A stretch of 64,000 bases of DNA, from the NCBI GenBank assembly GCA_038400315.1, contig CP151667.1:6831174-6895173 (forward strand). The letters run 5' to 3'. Each line of letters begins with the position of its first letter. Position 1 is the first letter of the stretch. Shown one piece after another: positions 1-22,950 of the stretch. Below the pieces are notes generated by a model, which worked only from the letters and a program-made list of their open reading frames with translations, was not told the DNA's origin and did no database searches. This stretch comes from Isosphaeraceae bacterium EP7 (GTDB lineage: Bacteria > Planctomycetota > Planctomycetia > Isosphaerales > Isosphaeraceae). The translations under genes were made by a program, and so were the position numbers.

Positions 1-723
1 ACTTGCAAACAGCTTGTACAGGCTGAACAAGGGGCAGGTGGCGGGGTCCTTGGGGGCCTCCACCGGGGTACTGTCGGTGACGATCTTCTTGACCTTCTTC
101 CGGATCAACGCCGGCTCGTCGAAGATCTCGATCGTGTTGCCGTAGCTCTTGGACATCTTCCGGCCGTCGAGGCCAGGGACCACGGCCGAGGCGTCCAGGA
201 TGTAAGGCTTGGGCAGCCGGAACGTCTCGCCGTAGACGTGGTTGAACCGCTCGGCGATGTCCCGCGTAATCTCCAGGTGCTGCTTCTGGTCCTGGCCCAC
301 CGGGACGAGGTCGGCGTCGTACAGCAGGATATCGGCGGCCTGGAGCACGGGGTAGGCGAACAGCCCGTGATCGGAGGGCAACCCCTGCTGCACCTTGTCT
401 TTATAGCTGACGCACTTCTCCAGCCAACCCATGGGCGTGACGGTCGTCAGCAGCCAGGCCAGCTCGGCCGTCTCCGGCACGTCCGACTGGACGAACAGGG
501 TGGCCACCTCGGGGTCGAGCCCCAAGGCCAGCAGGTCGACGATCACGTCGAACACGTACCCGCGCAGCTTGCCTGCGTCGCGGACGCTGGTGAGCGCGTG
601 GTAGTTGGCCACGAAGTAGAAGGCCTCATTGCCGCGTTGCAGCTCGACATACTGGCGGATCGCGCCGAAGTAATTGCCGATGTGCAGGGCCCCGGACGGC
701 TGGATTCCCGACAACACGCGCAT
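1..723 (-). CDS. trpS: Tryptophanyl-tRNA synthetase, 5' part (runs off the window)
   Basis: Charges tRNA-Trp with tryptophan in the cytoplasm. The minus-strand frame begins at an ATG at 723 and stays open for 241 codons to the window edge, so roughly the last quarter to third of a normal bacterial TrpS (about 330 residues) is missing. The class I signatures are both present: the HIGH-type motif reads HIGN at residues 14-17 and the KMSKS loop is exact at residues 189-193. The N-terminus [11 protein letters not shown] is the usual TrpS start, which fixes the start codon. No partner gene is visible on this side; the 327-base gap upstream separates it from a divergent unknown gene. Confidence 0.95.
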
Positions 724-9318: not shown

Positions 9319-9345
9319 AGCCGACGCCCGCCCCATCAACGGAGC

Positions 9346-9377
9346 GACCCGCGACGATCATCGGATCGTCGCGGGTC
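9346..9377. terminator. Bidirectional intrinsic-type terminator hairpin
   Basis: A perfect 14-bp inverted repeat (9346-9359 with 9364-9377) around an ATCG loop sits in the 87-base gap between two convergent genes. It has no T-tract on either side, so it may act as a structural barrier or need Rho. Confidence 0.75.
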
Positions 9378-9405
9378 GGGGCGTGTTCGGAGGCTCGTCG
9401 GCAGC

Positions 9406-9891
9406 TCAGCAGCTGCAGCAGACGGGCATGTTGTTCATCATGACGCAGCAGGTGCAGCCGGACTTCATCATGGAGGTCATGCAGTCGCAGCAGGCCTGGA
9501 TCATGGCGCAGCAGGCGGCGTCGCCGCTGGTGCAGGTCATGCAGACGCCCATGTCGCAGGGCTCGCACTTGGTCATGCCCATCATCATGTTGCAGTTGCA
9601 GGCCATCATGCCGTTCATCATGCAGCAGCAGGACATCATGCTGCCGGCCATCATGGTGCAGAGGTTCTGCAGCATGGCGGCGGACATCTCGTCCTCGCAC
9701 TTGCAGGTGACCTTCATGCCGCCGGTGCACTTCTCGAAGGTCATGGTGCAGCGGGGCACCATCATCATGTTCATGCCGGCGGGCGTGGTCGTCGGCGCGG
9801 TGCCGGTCATCATGCCTGCGGCCGGCATCCCCATGCCCATGCCGGTCATGCCCATCATCGTGCCACGTTCCATCATCTTCGCGGTCGCCAT
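9406..9891 (-). CDS. Methionine- and cysteine-rich protein, putative metal binder
   Basis: A 161-residue protein of extreme composition: by hand count 40 Met and 25 Cys, many in MM, CCC and CC runs. Residues 1-45 are Met/Gly/Thr-rich (TGMGMGMPAAGMM); residues 48-161 carry nearly all cysteines, spaced as CxC, CC and CxxC (KVTCKCEDEM, SCCCMMNGMM, ACCDCMTSMM, GCTCCVMM). No signal peptide or membrane helix is obvious. Soft thioether and thiol ligands of this kind bind Cu(I), Ag(I) or similar metals, so metal storage or buffering is the natural guess, but I know of no characterised homologue. GGGAGG lies 9 bases before the ATG. A frame on the opposite strand is also open; the minus frame is preferred for its ribosome site and ordered N-terminus. 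Confidence 0.75.
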   Translation of the reverse strand: MATAKMMERGTMMGMTGMGMGMPAAGMMTGTAPTTTPAGMNMMMVPRCTMTFEKCTGGMKVTCKCEDEMSAAMLQNLCTMMAGSMMSCCCMMNGMMACNCNMMMGMTKCEPCDMGVCMTCTSGDAACCAMIQACCDCMTSMMKSGCTCCVMMNNMPVCCSC

Positions 9892-10221
9892 CGGTCTCGG
9901 CCTCCCAGGTTCGGCGTCTCACCTTCAAGGCCGGCGATTCCGGCCATTCATGGGTCGCATTCTTCCGGAAAAAGGCGCGACTTGCAAGGAGTTGGATCGG
10001 AAATATTCGCAACTGATCATGATAAAGTTGATCATCAACGAAAAGCTGATCGAGATTCGTAACACCCCAAGAAGCAGCCCCTTAGACCGCCCCAGGCGGG
10101 CAGAAAAACAACGCCCCGAAAGATTCTTGGGATTTTCTCCTTGCCAATCTCACCAATGCCGATAACCTTAGTGAGGTATCCGACGAAGACGCCGCCCGAC
10201 AGCCGCAGTGGGAGCCTTCGC
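9892..10221. other. Divergent control region with TGATC repeats
   Basis: This 330-base gap separates the Met/Cys-rich gene (leftward) from a small gene (rightward). Around 9960-10075 it is clearly richer in A+T than its surroundings. TGATCAT occurs at 10014-10020 and again at 10029-10035, and TGATCG at 10047-10052; the first two are palindromic at the core (TGATCA). They lie 120-160 bases upstream of the Met/Cys-rich start and could be regulator sites; this is inference. Confidence 0.4.
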
Positions 10222-10548: not shown

Positions 10549-10959
10549 ATGAAGATCTCCGCGAAGGCCGAGTATGCCTGTTTGGCGATCATCGAGCTGG
10601 CCAGGGATGCAGCCCCCTTCCTGCCCAGGCCCGCACGCGAGATCGCCGAGGCCCAGGGTATCTCCGAGCCCTACCTCGTCCAGATCCTCCTCAGGCTCAA
10701 GGCCGCCGGGCTCGTCCAGAGTGCACGCGGGGCCGTCGGCGGGTACCAGCTTGCCCGCGACCCCGAGTCGATCACCGTCGCCGAGGTGATCTCCGCCATC
10801 GACGGGCCGGGCGAACGCCTGGGACGCAAGGGAGGCATGGCCGCCAGGGCCCTCATTGACCTCCTGGTCAACGCCAGGGCCGCCGAGCAGACGGTCCTCA
10901 CGTCGACCTCGATCGCCGACCTCGCCGGCCGCGTCCCGCGCAATGACTGGGTGCTCTAG
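10549..10959 (+). CDS. Rrf2-family transcription regulator
   Basis: A 136-residue winged-helix DNA-binding protein. The start MKISAKAEYACLAIIELA and the recognition region EIAEAQGISEPYLVQILLRLKAAGLV followed by the wing SARGAVGGYQLAR are characteristic of Rrf2 proteins. The C-terminal part lacks the three spaced cysteines that ligate Fe-S clusters in IscR and NsrR; the only Cys is residue 10. It therefore resembles the cysteine-free branch (such as CymR-like proteins) and probably senses something other than an Fe-S cluster or acts through protein contact. No target gene is obvious in the neighbourhood. Confidence 0.85.
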   Translation: MKISAKAEYACLAIIELARDAAPFLPRPAREIAEAQGISEPYLVQILLRLKAAGLVQSARGAVGGYQLARDPESITVAEVISAIDGPGERLGRKGGMAARALIDLLVNARAAEQTVLTSTSIADLAGRVPRNDWVL

Positions 10960-19872: not shown

Positions 19873-22800
19873 TCAGAGTTCCACACTCCGGGGTTGACGG
19901 GCGGCGAAGAGGGGATAGATGGCGGGGAGGACCAGGGCGGTCAGGAGGGTTGAGGTGAGAAGGCCGCCGATGACGACGGTGGCCAGGGGGCGCTGGATCT
20001 CGGCGCCAGGGGTGACGGAGGTGGCCATGGGCAAGAAGCCGAAGGCGGCGACCAGGGCGGTCATCAGGATCGGCCGGAGGCGGGAGAGCGAGGCCTCGCG
20101 GGCGGCCTCCCGGGGCGGGTGGCCGGCGTCGCGCAGATGTTCCACGGCGCTGACCCAGACGAGGCCGTTGAGGACGGCGACCCCGAAGAGTGCGATGAAG
20201 CCGACGCCCGCCGAGATCGAGAAGGGCAGGTCTCGCAGGGCCAGGGCGAAGATGCCTCCGGTGGCCGCGGTGGGGACGGCCAGGTAAATCAGCAATGCCA
20301 GGCGCATCGATCCGAACGAGCTGTAGAGCAGCAGGAAGATCAGGCCGAGCGCCACCGGCACCACGATGAGCAGGCGGCGAGTGGCGGTCTGCAAGTGCTC
20401 GAACTGGCCGCCCCAGCGGAGGACGTAGCCGGGGGGGAGGCTGACCTTGGCGGCGATGGAGCGCTGGGCCTCGGCGACGAAGCCGGCGAGGTCGCGGTCG
20501 CGGACGTTGACGCCGACGACGGCCCTGCGCTGGACGTTCTCGCGCTCGATCTCGCTGGGGCCTTCCTCCATCGTGATGTCGGCGAGGTCGGCCAGCGGGA
20601 TGGGCCGGCCGAGGGGGTCGGCGACGCGGATCGAGCCGATGCGCTCGGGGCTGTCGCGCCAGGCGAGCGGGAGCCGGATCTGGATGGGGTGGCGGGCCTG
20701 GCCTTCGAAGACCATGCCGACGGTGGTCCCCCCCTGCGCGGAGATGGATTGGAGGACGTCGGCGGCCTGGATCCCGTAGCGGGCGAGCTGGTCGCGGCGC
20801 ACCGTGACCCTGAGCATCGGGAGCCGGCCCGAGGTGGGGACCTTGATGTCGCGGGCCCCCTCGATCTTGGAGAGCACGCGCTCGATCTCGGTCGCTTTCT
20901 CGCGGAGCACGCCGAGGTCGGGGCCGTACAGCAGGGCGGCGACGTCGCTCTTGACGCCGGCGACAAGCTCATTGACGCGCATCTCGATTGGCTGGCTGAA
21001 GCCGAACTTGACGCCGGGCACCTGGGCGGAGAGGACCTCGTCCATCTTGCGGATGAGCTCGTCGCGGGTGACCCCCTGGCGCCACTCGGACTGGGGCCTG
21101 AGCATGGCCCAAACATCGGTCTGATGCACACCCATCACATCATTGGCGATCTCGGGCCGGCCCGTCTTGCAGAAGACGGTGCGGACCTCGGGGAAGGTCT
21201 TCAGGATCGTCTCGATCTGGGTCGACATGGGGACGGCCCCCTCGAGCGCGGCCGACGGGATGCGCACGGCCTCGATGAGGAGGTCGCCCTCGTTGAGCCT
21301 GGGCATGAACTCGGCGCCAAGGTTCAGGGCCACCGGCACGCTGGAAGCGACGAGAGCGACGGCCAGCAAGGCCGCGAGGACCGGGCGATGGACGAAGGCG
21401 TCGAGGATCGGGGCATAAAGGCGCTTGAGGATGCGTATGACGAGAATTTCGCGGGCGGCGGGGACGGCCTTCAGGGCCAATGACGCGAGGACGGGCATCA
21501 ATGTGAGTGAGAGGACCATTGAGCCGGCCAGGGCGAAAATCACGGTGAGGGCCATCGGCCGGAAGAGCTTCCCCTCGGTCCCTTGCAGGGCCAAAATCGG
21601 CAGGTAGACGATGGCGATGATCAGCTCGCCGAAGAGGGTGGGCTTGCGGACCTCGACGGCGGCGTCGCGGATGATGGCGAGCTTGGATCGCGTGCCTGCC
21701 TCGTGTCCGAGGCGATGGACACAGTTCTCGACCATGATGACGCTGGAGTCGACGATCAGGCCGAAGTCGATGGCGCCCAGGCTCATCAGGCTGGCGGAAA
21801 GGCCGGTGGCGAGCATGACGTTGGCGGCGAAGAGCATCGACAGCGGGATGGCCAGCGCGACGATCAGGCCGCCGCGGAGGTCGCCCAGCAGCAGGAGCAG
21901 CACGGCGACGACGAGGATGCCCCCCTCGGCCAGGTTGTGGAGGACGGTTTCCAGGGTCTGCTCGATCAGGTGCGAGCGGTCATAAAGGGGCTCGATGGTG
22001 ACGCCGGTGGGGAGGGCGGCGTTGATCCGTTTCAGCTCCGCCTTGACGTCCTCGACGACGAGCCTGGAGTTCTGGCCGATGAGCATCATGACCAGGCCGA
22101 CGACGATCTCGCCCTCGCCATCGCGGGTGGCCAGGCCCGCGCGAATCATGGGGGCGATGGTGACGTTTGCCAGGTCTTTGATGGTGACGGGGACGCCGGC
22201 GCGCTCGTCGACGACGATGGCCTCGATGTCGGGGATGCCGTGGGCCTGGCTCTCGCCGCGGATGTAGCGGGCCTCGCCCTCGTGCACCAGGTAGCCGCCG
22301 CCCACGTTGACGTTGTTGGCGTTCAGCGAGTCGACGATCCGGGCCATGGTCAGGCGGTAGGCGTTGAGCTTGTCGGGGTCGACCTCGACCCGGTACGTCT
22401 TCAGCTCGCCGCCGTGGCTGTTGATCTCGGTGACGCCCGGCACGGCGCGGAGCTGGTAGGAGACGAACCAGTCGAGGATCGTGCGCAGCTCCATGGGGCT
22501 GACGCCCTTGCCCTTCACCTGGAACTGGTAGACCTCTCCCAGGGCGGTGGAGATGGGCCCGAGGCCGGGAGTCCCGTAGCCGGGGGGAATGGCCTGCGCG
22601 GCGCGTGAGAGCCGCTCGCCGACGAGCTGGCGGGCGCGGTAGATGTCGGTCCCCTCGCGGAAGACGACGGTGACCACGGAGATGCCGAATTTGGAGACGG
22701 AGCGGATCTGCTCGACGTCGGGCAGGCCGCTCATGGCCCCCTCGACGGGGAACGAGATGAGGGTCTCGACTTCCAGGGGGGAGAGCGCGGCGGCCTCGGT

Positions 22801-22950
22801 GAGGATCTGGACCTGGACGTTGGTCAGGTCGGGGATGGCGTCGATGGGCAGGTTCAGGGCGGAGTAGACGCCCATGGCGGCAACCAGGGCGGTCAGGGCC
22901 AGGACCATGAACCGGTTGCGCAGCGAGCCCTCGATGAGTGCGTTGAGCAT
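19873..22950 (-). CDS. Heavy-metal efflux RND pump (CzcA/CusA family)
   Basis: A 1025-residue inner-membrane proton/metal antiporter that expels metal ions from the periplasm or cytoplasm. The family plan is complete: N-terminal helix, two large periplasmic loops, and two blocks of helices. The motif in the fourth helix reads DFGLIVDSSVIMVEN, the DFG...D form of the divalent-cation (CzcA-like) branches rather than the GGIAIAIG form of copper/silver CusA, so zinc, cobalt or nickel is more likely than copper; the substrate remains unproven. It starts 7 bases after the stop of the membrane fusion protein gene, so the two form an operon. No outer-membrane TolC-type gene follows. Confidence 0.93.
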   Translation of the reverse strand: MLNALIEGSLRNRFMVLALTALVAAMGVYSALNLPIDAIPDLTNVQVQILTEAAALSPLEVETLISFPVEGAMSGLPDVEQIRSVSKFGISVVTVVFREGTDIYRARQLVGERLSRAAQAIPPGYGTPGLGPISTALGEVYQFQVKGKGVSPMELRTILDWFVSYQLRAVPGVTEINSHGGELKTYRVEVDPDKLNAYRLTMARIVDSLNANNVNVGGGYLVHEGEARYIRGESQAHGIPDIEAIVVDERAGVPVTIKDLANVTIAPMIRAGLATRDGEGEIVVGLVMMLIGQNSRLVVEDVKAELKRINAALPTGVTIEPLYDRSHLIEQTLETVLHNLAEGGILVVAVLLLLLGDLRGGLIVALAIPLSMLFAANVMLATGLSASLMSLGAIDFGLIVDSSVIMVENCVHRLGHEAGTRSKLAIIRDAAVEVRKPTLFGELIIAIVYLPILALQGTEGKLFRPMALTVIFALAGSMVLSLTLMPVLASLALKAVPAAREILVIRILKRLYAPILDAFVHRPVLAALLAVALVASSVPVALNLGAEFMPRLNEGDLLIEAVRIPSAALEGAVPMSTQIETILKTFPEVRTVFCKTGRPEIANDVMGVHQTDVWAMLRPQSEWRQGVTRDELIRKMDEVLSAQVPGVKFGFSQPIEMRVNELVAGVKSDVAALLYGPDLGVLREKATEIERVLSKIEGARDIKVPTSGRLPMLRVTVRRDQLARYGIQAADVLQSISAQGGTTVGMVFEGQARHPIQIRLPLAWRDSPERIGSIRVADPLGRPIPLADLADITMEEGPSEIERENVQRRAVVGVNVRDRDLAGFVAEAQRSIAAKVSLPPGYVLRWGGQFEHLQTATRRLLIVVPVALGLIFLLLYSSFGSMRLALLIYLAVPTAATGGIFALALRDLPFSISAGVGFIALFGVAVLNGLVWVSAVEHLRDAGHPPREAAREASLSRLRPILMTALVAAFGFLPMATSVTPGAEIQRPLATVVIGGLLTSTLLTALVLPAIYPLFAARQPRSVEL

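Follow-up and report, generated by a model that had tools for sequence, protein, structure and literature searches.

The Csp copper storage proteins (Csp1 and Csp3; DUF326, PF03860) hold Cu(I) on Cys thiols, Csp3 in the cytosol, and the bacterial metallothioneins SmtA and MymT are cytosolic proteins with clusters of CC and CxC. Among plant proteins, the sulfur-rich seed storage proteins (2S albumins and delta-zeins) are secretory. The 161-residue protein described here, found in a window of 64,000 nucleotides (the whole stretch of DNA that was analysed), is similar to the seed proteins in composition and carries CC and CxC clusters as the metallothioneins do. PF03860 had no match in this protein or in 25 members of its family, and a PF03860 protein is absent from the host genome; no known metallothionein model of Pfam or NCBIfam matched it, and no sequence relation to the seed proteins is known. 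Replacement of Csp by the new family was considered and rejected, since no significant anticorrelation was seen: Csp was present in 4 of 23 genomes with the family and in 21 of 76 without it (p 0.42).

The gene, its product and its family

The gene is single-copy in a host genome of 7.2 Mb. Translation of its reading frame confirmed the composition given by the first-pass annotation, with 40 Met (24.8%) and 25 Cys (15.5%), i.e., two-fifths of all residues bear sulfur. Neither a signal peptide nor an N-terminal hydrophobic segment was found, and as only nine sense codons lie in frame 5' of the ATG, a missed signal peptide is impossible; the protein is predicted to be located in the cytosol. The hairpin downstream is probably a terminator common to the two convergent genes, and it was not reported by a terminator scan that required a T tract.

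Table 1. Position of the Cys/Met-rich gene, its sequence elements, protein segments and neighbouring genes in the window
Feature	Position	Strand	Basis or remark
Multi-membrane protein, 478 aa	7882-9318	+	Runs convergently towards the Cys/Met-rich gene; matches no family of Pfam or NCBIfam
Perfect hairpin, 15 bp	9345-9378		Between the Cys/Met-rich gene and the convergent gene
Cys/Met-rich CDS	9406-9891	-	161 aa; stop-free translation
Repeat 2, residues 104-161	9409-9582	-	AlphaFold2; hhalign
Repeat 2 elements: strands 106-112, 115-121; helix 125-141; strands 147-152, 155-160			AlphaFold2
Repeat 1, residues 43-103	9583-9765	-	AlphaFold2; hhalign
Repeat 1 elements: strands 43-55, 58-65; helix 68-81; strands 86-92, 95-102			AlphaFold2
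Met/Gly-rich N-terminal tail, residues 1-41, predicted disordered	9769-9891	-	AlphaFold2 pLDDT <50
Ribosome-binding site GGGAGG	9901-9906	-	Sequence
Putative sigma-70-like promoter, TTGCAA, 17 nt, AAGAAT	9959-9987	-	Sequence, 8/12 matches
Conserved dyad TGATCAACTTTATCATGATCA	10014-10034	-	Upstream of the putative -35
Divergent partner, 74 aa	10222-10446	+	Conserved IYRLAYEQA-type helix, C-terminal Asn
Rrf2-family regulator, downstream of the partner	10549-10959	+	Pfam PF02082 2.4e-27
Large gene for an RND-type efflux pump, resembling CusA by eye	19873-22950	-	About 10 kb from the Cys/Met-rich gene

Homologues with stop-free frames and 44-78% identity were present in 23 of the 99 related genomes searched. 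When 397 genomes were drawn evenly from the class, about 62 of them gave strong matches, with up to three copies per genome, and two further members came from other classes of the phylum. Every named locus belongs to Planctomycetota, and homologues with conserved Cys spacing are present in both Isosphaeraceae and Gemmataceae. The family had no match among Pfam, NCBIfam or PDB sequences, and no description of it was found in the literature searched; the first-pass suggestion of an undescribed, planctomycete protein thus held. The family occurs patchily, and many complete genomes do not have it. Several Gemmataceae loci (L030, L033, L056, L058, L059, and L060) have a DDE_5 transposase at a distance of up to about 2 kb from the gene, and this transposase accounts for 10 of the 143 nearest neighbours, which may help to explain the patchiness; no plasmid carriage of the family itself was found.

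Selection was evaluated in both orientations. Over the core, dN/dS ranged from 0.09 to 0.46 in 11 of 12 pairs, the remaining pair giving 0.86, whereas in the antisense frames pN was about equal to pS, i.e., without protein selection. The first-pass annotation had raised the case of a better-conserved protein in the antisense frame 9383-10165, and this was not what we found: the frame is indeed open in the window, through composition only, but the notion that it is the real gene and that the Cys/Met-rich frame arose by chance has a negligible probability. It is contradicted by the selection data, by the wide homology and by the co-occurrence with a partner gene described below, and the antisense gene was rejected on these grounds. 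With stop-free homologues in so many genomes and purifying values in nearly all pairs, the family is real beyond chance: an undescribed, folded family kept by selection across many planctomycetes.

In the AlphaFold2 model, residues 43-161 form two units of beta-beta-alpha-beta-beta topology, eight strands and two helices in total (pLDDT about 70-89). The two repeats aligned to each other by hhalign with E 2.6e-12, and judged by this sequence comparison the core is an internal duplication. Against PDB folds, the best values were a Foldseek E of 0.24 and a VIA-align Z of 3.8, none well above background, and no metal-binding fold was recognised in these searches; such a lack of a structural match in PDB does not make the fold new.

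Among 72 non-redundant sequences, 25 columns are at least 60% Cys, and six (48, 63, 78, 120, 127, and 148) are at least 97% Cys. The conserved CC and CxC pairs include 63/65, 98/100, 107/109, 127/128, 134/135, 146/148, and 158/159, while G58, D67, N93, G94, and D124 are invariant or nearly so among the non-sulfur residues. The 11 Met columns of the same alignment swap mostly to Leu, Val, Thr, Ile, and Phe, hold Leu, Ile, Val, or Phe in Met-poor members, and are largely hydrophobic-core positions. The earlier impression of a protein with almost no hydrophobic core was therefore mistaken, because the Met columns themselves form the core. Family extremes run from 1-5% core Met with up to 31% Cys to 33% Met with 14% Cys, so the family keeps Cys constant while Met varies. 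Moreover, tail Met tracks core Met (Spearman 0.76) and Met trades off against Cys (Spearman -0.52), neither value being corrected for kinship. In the most Met-rich, distant members Cys is replaced by Met, a pattern to be expected of soft-metal ligands and not of disulfides; a disulfide-linked wall protein is unlikely on this ground and for want of a signal peptide.

Upstream elements and gene neighbourhood

Rightward from the Cys/Met-rich gene follow the putative promoter, the dyad, the partner gene, and the Rrf2 gene. The promoter scored below the threshold of the automatic scan and was not reported by it; comparable -35/-10 pairs are visible in relatives of the locus. An exact-palindrome scan gave little, and the dyad was spotted by eye in the alignment and then tested by a weight matrix on held-out loci, where a high-scoring site was located about 98-143 bp upstream (L055 and L115, the latter from Gemmataceae, are examples). 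At up to three mismatches, the genomes searched held no second copy of the dyad. A regulon sharing it was rejected, as these searches returned only the locus itself, and at that stringency the dyad is therefore not a shared sulfur-regulon site. Furthermore, no riboswitch or other known RNA, Met riboswitch included, was found at gathering score near 20 loci.

The small protein that had been noticed to the right of the gene proved to be a true partner. A profile trained on neighbours of Cys/Met-rich genes matched 20 of the 99 genomes, all 20 within the 23 that have the Cys/Met-rich family (p 4e-18), and strong matches adjoin the Cys/Met-rich gene. The regulator beyond it passed the TIGR00738 cut-off (101.8 against 73.3 bits). 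Its best-scoring equivalog model was that of CymR, which shares the Rrf2 superfamily with it, at a score below the cut-off (NF047409, 84 against 195 bits); it is CymR-like and without the C-terminal cysteine cluster. Elsewhere, in L042, L046, L047, L048, L050, and L051, two distinct Rrf2 regulators flank the Cys/Met-rich gene, the upstream one short and without a cysteine cluster, the downstream one with such a cluster at its C-terminus.

Across the 143 nearest neighbours, Rrf2 (n = 18) and PALP (n = 11) were the commonest Pfam families, followed by the transposase. Of 77 loci, 17 had cysteine synthase (CysK) or cystathionine beta-synthase (CBS) no more than about 2.1 kb away, whereas 0.16 would be expected from the one to five CysK-like genes that each genome carries, the 77 loci not being independent of one another. 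The arrangements vary (CBS-CGL divergent; Rrf2-CysK downstream; CysK and DUF2292 upstream), and such differences in arrangement and in gene family argue against a single inherited accident. CBS and CGL are neighbours of the gene in seven loci. OscA-like DUF2292 proteins lie near it in about ten; they match PF10055 and score below the OscA model NF033785 (33.7 and 34.3 against 85 bits). Of these genes, the host genome has the Rrf2 gene alone at its locus, its CysK-like genes being megabases away. In none of the 77 loci were CPx-type ATPases or copper pumps found, no metal-related family was among the 25 commonest neighbour Pfams, and no metal transporter or metal sensor recurred. The dominant context of the family is cysteine and methionine metabolism with CymR-like Rrf2 regulators, not metal transport.

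The remote IQAH family

The weakest matches of the class search were proteins with the duplicated unit and without Cys/Met enrichment, here called the IQAH family; five of the six weak matches (E 1e-5 to 1e-3) were read, and all belong to it. Its members comprise loci L154-L158, plasmid matches H26-H36, and plasmid loci L159-L168. The unit, G-V-x-x-T-x-S-x-D ... I-Q-A, is common to the Cys/Met-rich family, and no Pfam model covers it; in the IQAH family itself it can be written GV-T-S-D...IQ-H. Over both repeats, the two profiles aligned by hhalign with a score of 34.0 across 98 columns (E 1.4e-4, probability 52%), against 13.3 for the best of 200 column shuffles and 10.2 for the reversed control, which suggests homology at a modest level. 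Some IQAH proteins are fused to a DsrE domain.

Nine of the ten plasmid loci read sit within metal-resistance or metal-stress gene sets, in a sample that is biased because plasmids are rich in metal-resistance genes. In the M. lentiflavum plasmid locus CsoR and a copper P-type ATPase adjoin; other neighbours are CopY with a cadmium transporter and ArsR, a heavy-metal ATPase with ArsR, ars genes, or merA with RND genes. The Aminobacter locus has only a set of two-component, Spy-CpxP, and SHOCT genes, suggestive at most, and one small plasmid with an IQAH gene had no metal-resistance genes. Among four control plasmid DsrE loci, none lay in a canonical metal-resistance cluster, although an ArsR regulator and a multicopper oxidase were present in two of them. 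Most plasmid IQAH proteins have Met/Gly/His-rich stretches. Recurrence of the IQAH family in Cu, Hg, As, and Cd resistance clusters was seen in mycobacteria and alphaproteobacteria, and in planctomycetes its genes adjoin RND pumps or, by eye, apparent sulfide-oxidation operons. From its gene neighbours, the IQAH family itself would be a good candidate for a metal-resistance component. It differs from the Cys/Met-rich family in that most of its proteins have an N-terminal signal-like or membrane segment, are nearly free of Cys, and lack a cysteine-gene context, whereas the Cys/Met-rich loci are not metal-resistance clusters as most of the plasmid IQAH loci are.

Candidate functions and known systems

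We consider, with a confidence of about one half, that the protein buffers soft metals on thiolates in the cytosol and has a cysteine supply of its own. Thiolates and thioethers of the folded protein would bind soft metal ions, Cu(I) most likely, for buffering or storage. The duplicated beta-beta-alpha(-beta-beta) scaffold, common with the IQAH family, would have been refitted by changes from Ser, Thr, Val, Ala, and His to Cys and from core Leu, Val, and Phe to Met. The conserved CC and CxC pairs would form metal-thiolate sites, and the Met/Gly-rich tail would contribute low-affinity thioether sites. The gene would be driven by its own promoter under the locus-specific dyad, in the company of the small partner, often of a cysteine-type Rrf2 regulator, and in several lineages of cysteine-making genes, which we propose lie nearby because the protein drains the cysteine pool; adjacent cysteine genes do fit a cysteine-hungry product. 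The analyses above establish the gene and its family, the selection on it, the duplication, the pattern of its columns, the co-located genes with the partner, the dyad, and the remote homology. Metal binding, the identity of the metal, the regulation, and the partner's role are what we infer, the step from sequence to metal being inferential throughout.

The fixed CC and CxC Cys, the Met tail, the cytosolic address, and the metal-linked relatives favour such a buffer, with Cu(I) first, and homology to the IQAH family of metal-resistance clusters backs it indirectly. In Staphylococcus aureus, loss of CymR leads to higher sensitivity to copper and tellurite (PMC2869319), so the themes of copper and cysteine are linked in biology. 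Against the buffer stand the recurring context, which is sulfur amino-acid metabolism with no recurring metal transporter or sensor, the failure of the fold searches to recognise a metal-binding fold, the distribution of Csp, which does not significantly complement that of the family, the modest strength of the IQAH homology, and the two planctomycete IQAH loci that resemble sulfide-oxidation operons by eye.

The same context fits, and thereby keeps alive, a reserve or sink in which excess Cys and Met would be banked under CymR-like control and degraded when sulfur is short; we rank it second to the soft-metal buffer and regard it as rather unlikely. In such a bacterial sulfur bank, to which we give a similarly low probability, sulfur amino acids would be deposited in and withdrawn from a Met-rewritten core and tail and Cys-set strands, with the Rrf2 regulator and the cysteine and transsulfuration genes adjoining. 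The excess of CysK and CBS genes in several arrangements, the DUF2292 neighbours, the lead of Rrf2 and PALP among neighbour families, and the two Met correlations, which look as though total sulfur were selected, all speak for it. However, the Cys positions are fixed, not free, the five (near-)invariant non-sulfur residues would be needless in a pure reserve, the CysK-like genes of the host genome are distant, neither a Met riboswitch nor another known RNA lies near the gene, the dyad is single-copy, and the literature searched yields no bacterial precedent.

CBS and CGL are able to produce H2S, and their presence beside the gene would suit a role of the Cys array as carrier or trap for the sulfane sulfur they make, Met being structural or antioxidant. 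Two DsrE-fused planctomycete IQAH members, among genes resembling sulfide:quinone reductase (SQR), persulfide dioxygenase/rhodanese, and TauE, point the same way; yet these neighbours, DsrE excepted, were assigned by eye, SQR, rhodanese, and DsrE are all missing from the commonest neighbour families of the Cys/Met-rich gene, and persulfide cannot be carried by Met, which makes this role quite unlikely. An oxidant sink, with Met and Cys scavenging oxidants and reductases recycling them as in periplasmic Met-rich scavengers, is improbable: the disordered tail is rich in Met and scavengers such as MrpX have already been described, but the protein is predicted to be cytosolic and folded with Met within its core, and no methionine sulfoxide reductase is among the commonest neighbour families.

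If the protein binds copper, it would be a cytosolic metal buffer with no known fold recognised in it, from a phylum in which copper handling has received little study, and would illustrate how Cys and Met can be fitted into an ordinary domain; as a reserve, it would be, to our knowledge, the first protein sulfur store in bacteria. Since the locus is compact (gene, partner, regulator, and single-copy dyad), the question can be tested experimentally in cultured Isosphaeraceae.

In brief, as a soft-metal buffer the protein would act like Csp1 and Csp3 in storing Cu(I) on many Cys thiols, although Csp is a Cys-lined four-helix bundle and the fold predicted here is a duplicated alpha/beta one. Compared with SmtA and MymT it is longer, very rich in Met, and predicted to be folded with two repeats. 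Under the reserve reading its function would be akin to that of the 2S albumins and delta-zeins. The protein would thus work like Csp3 or a metallothionein while belonging to neither.
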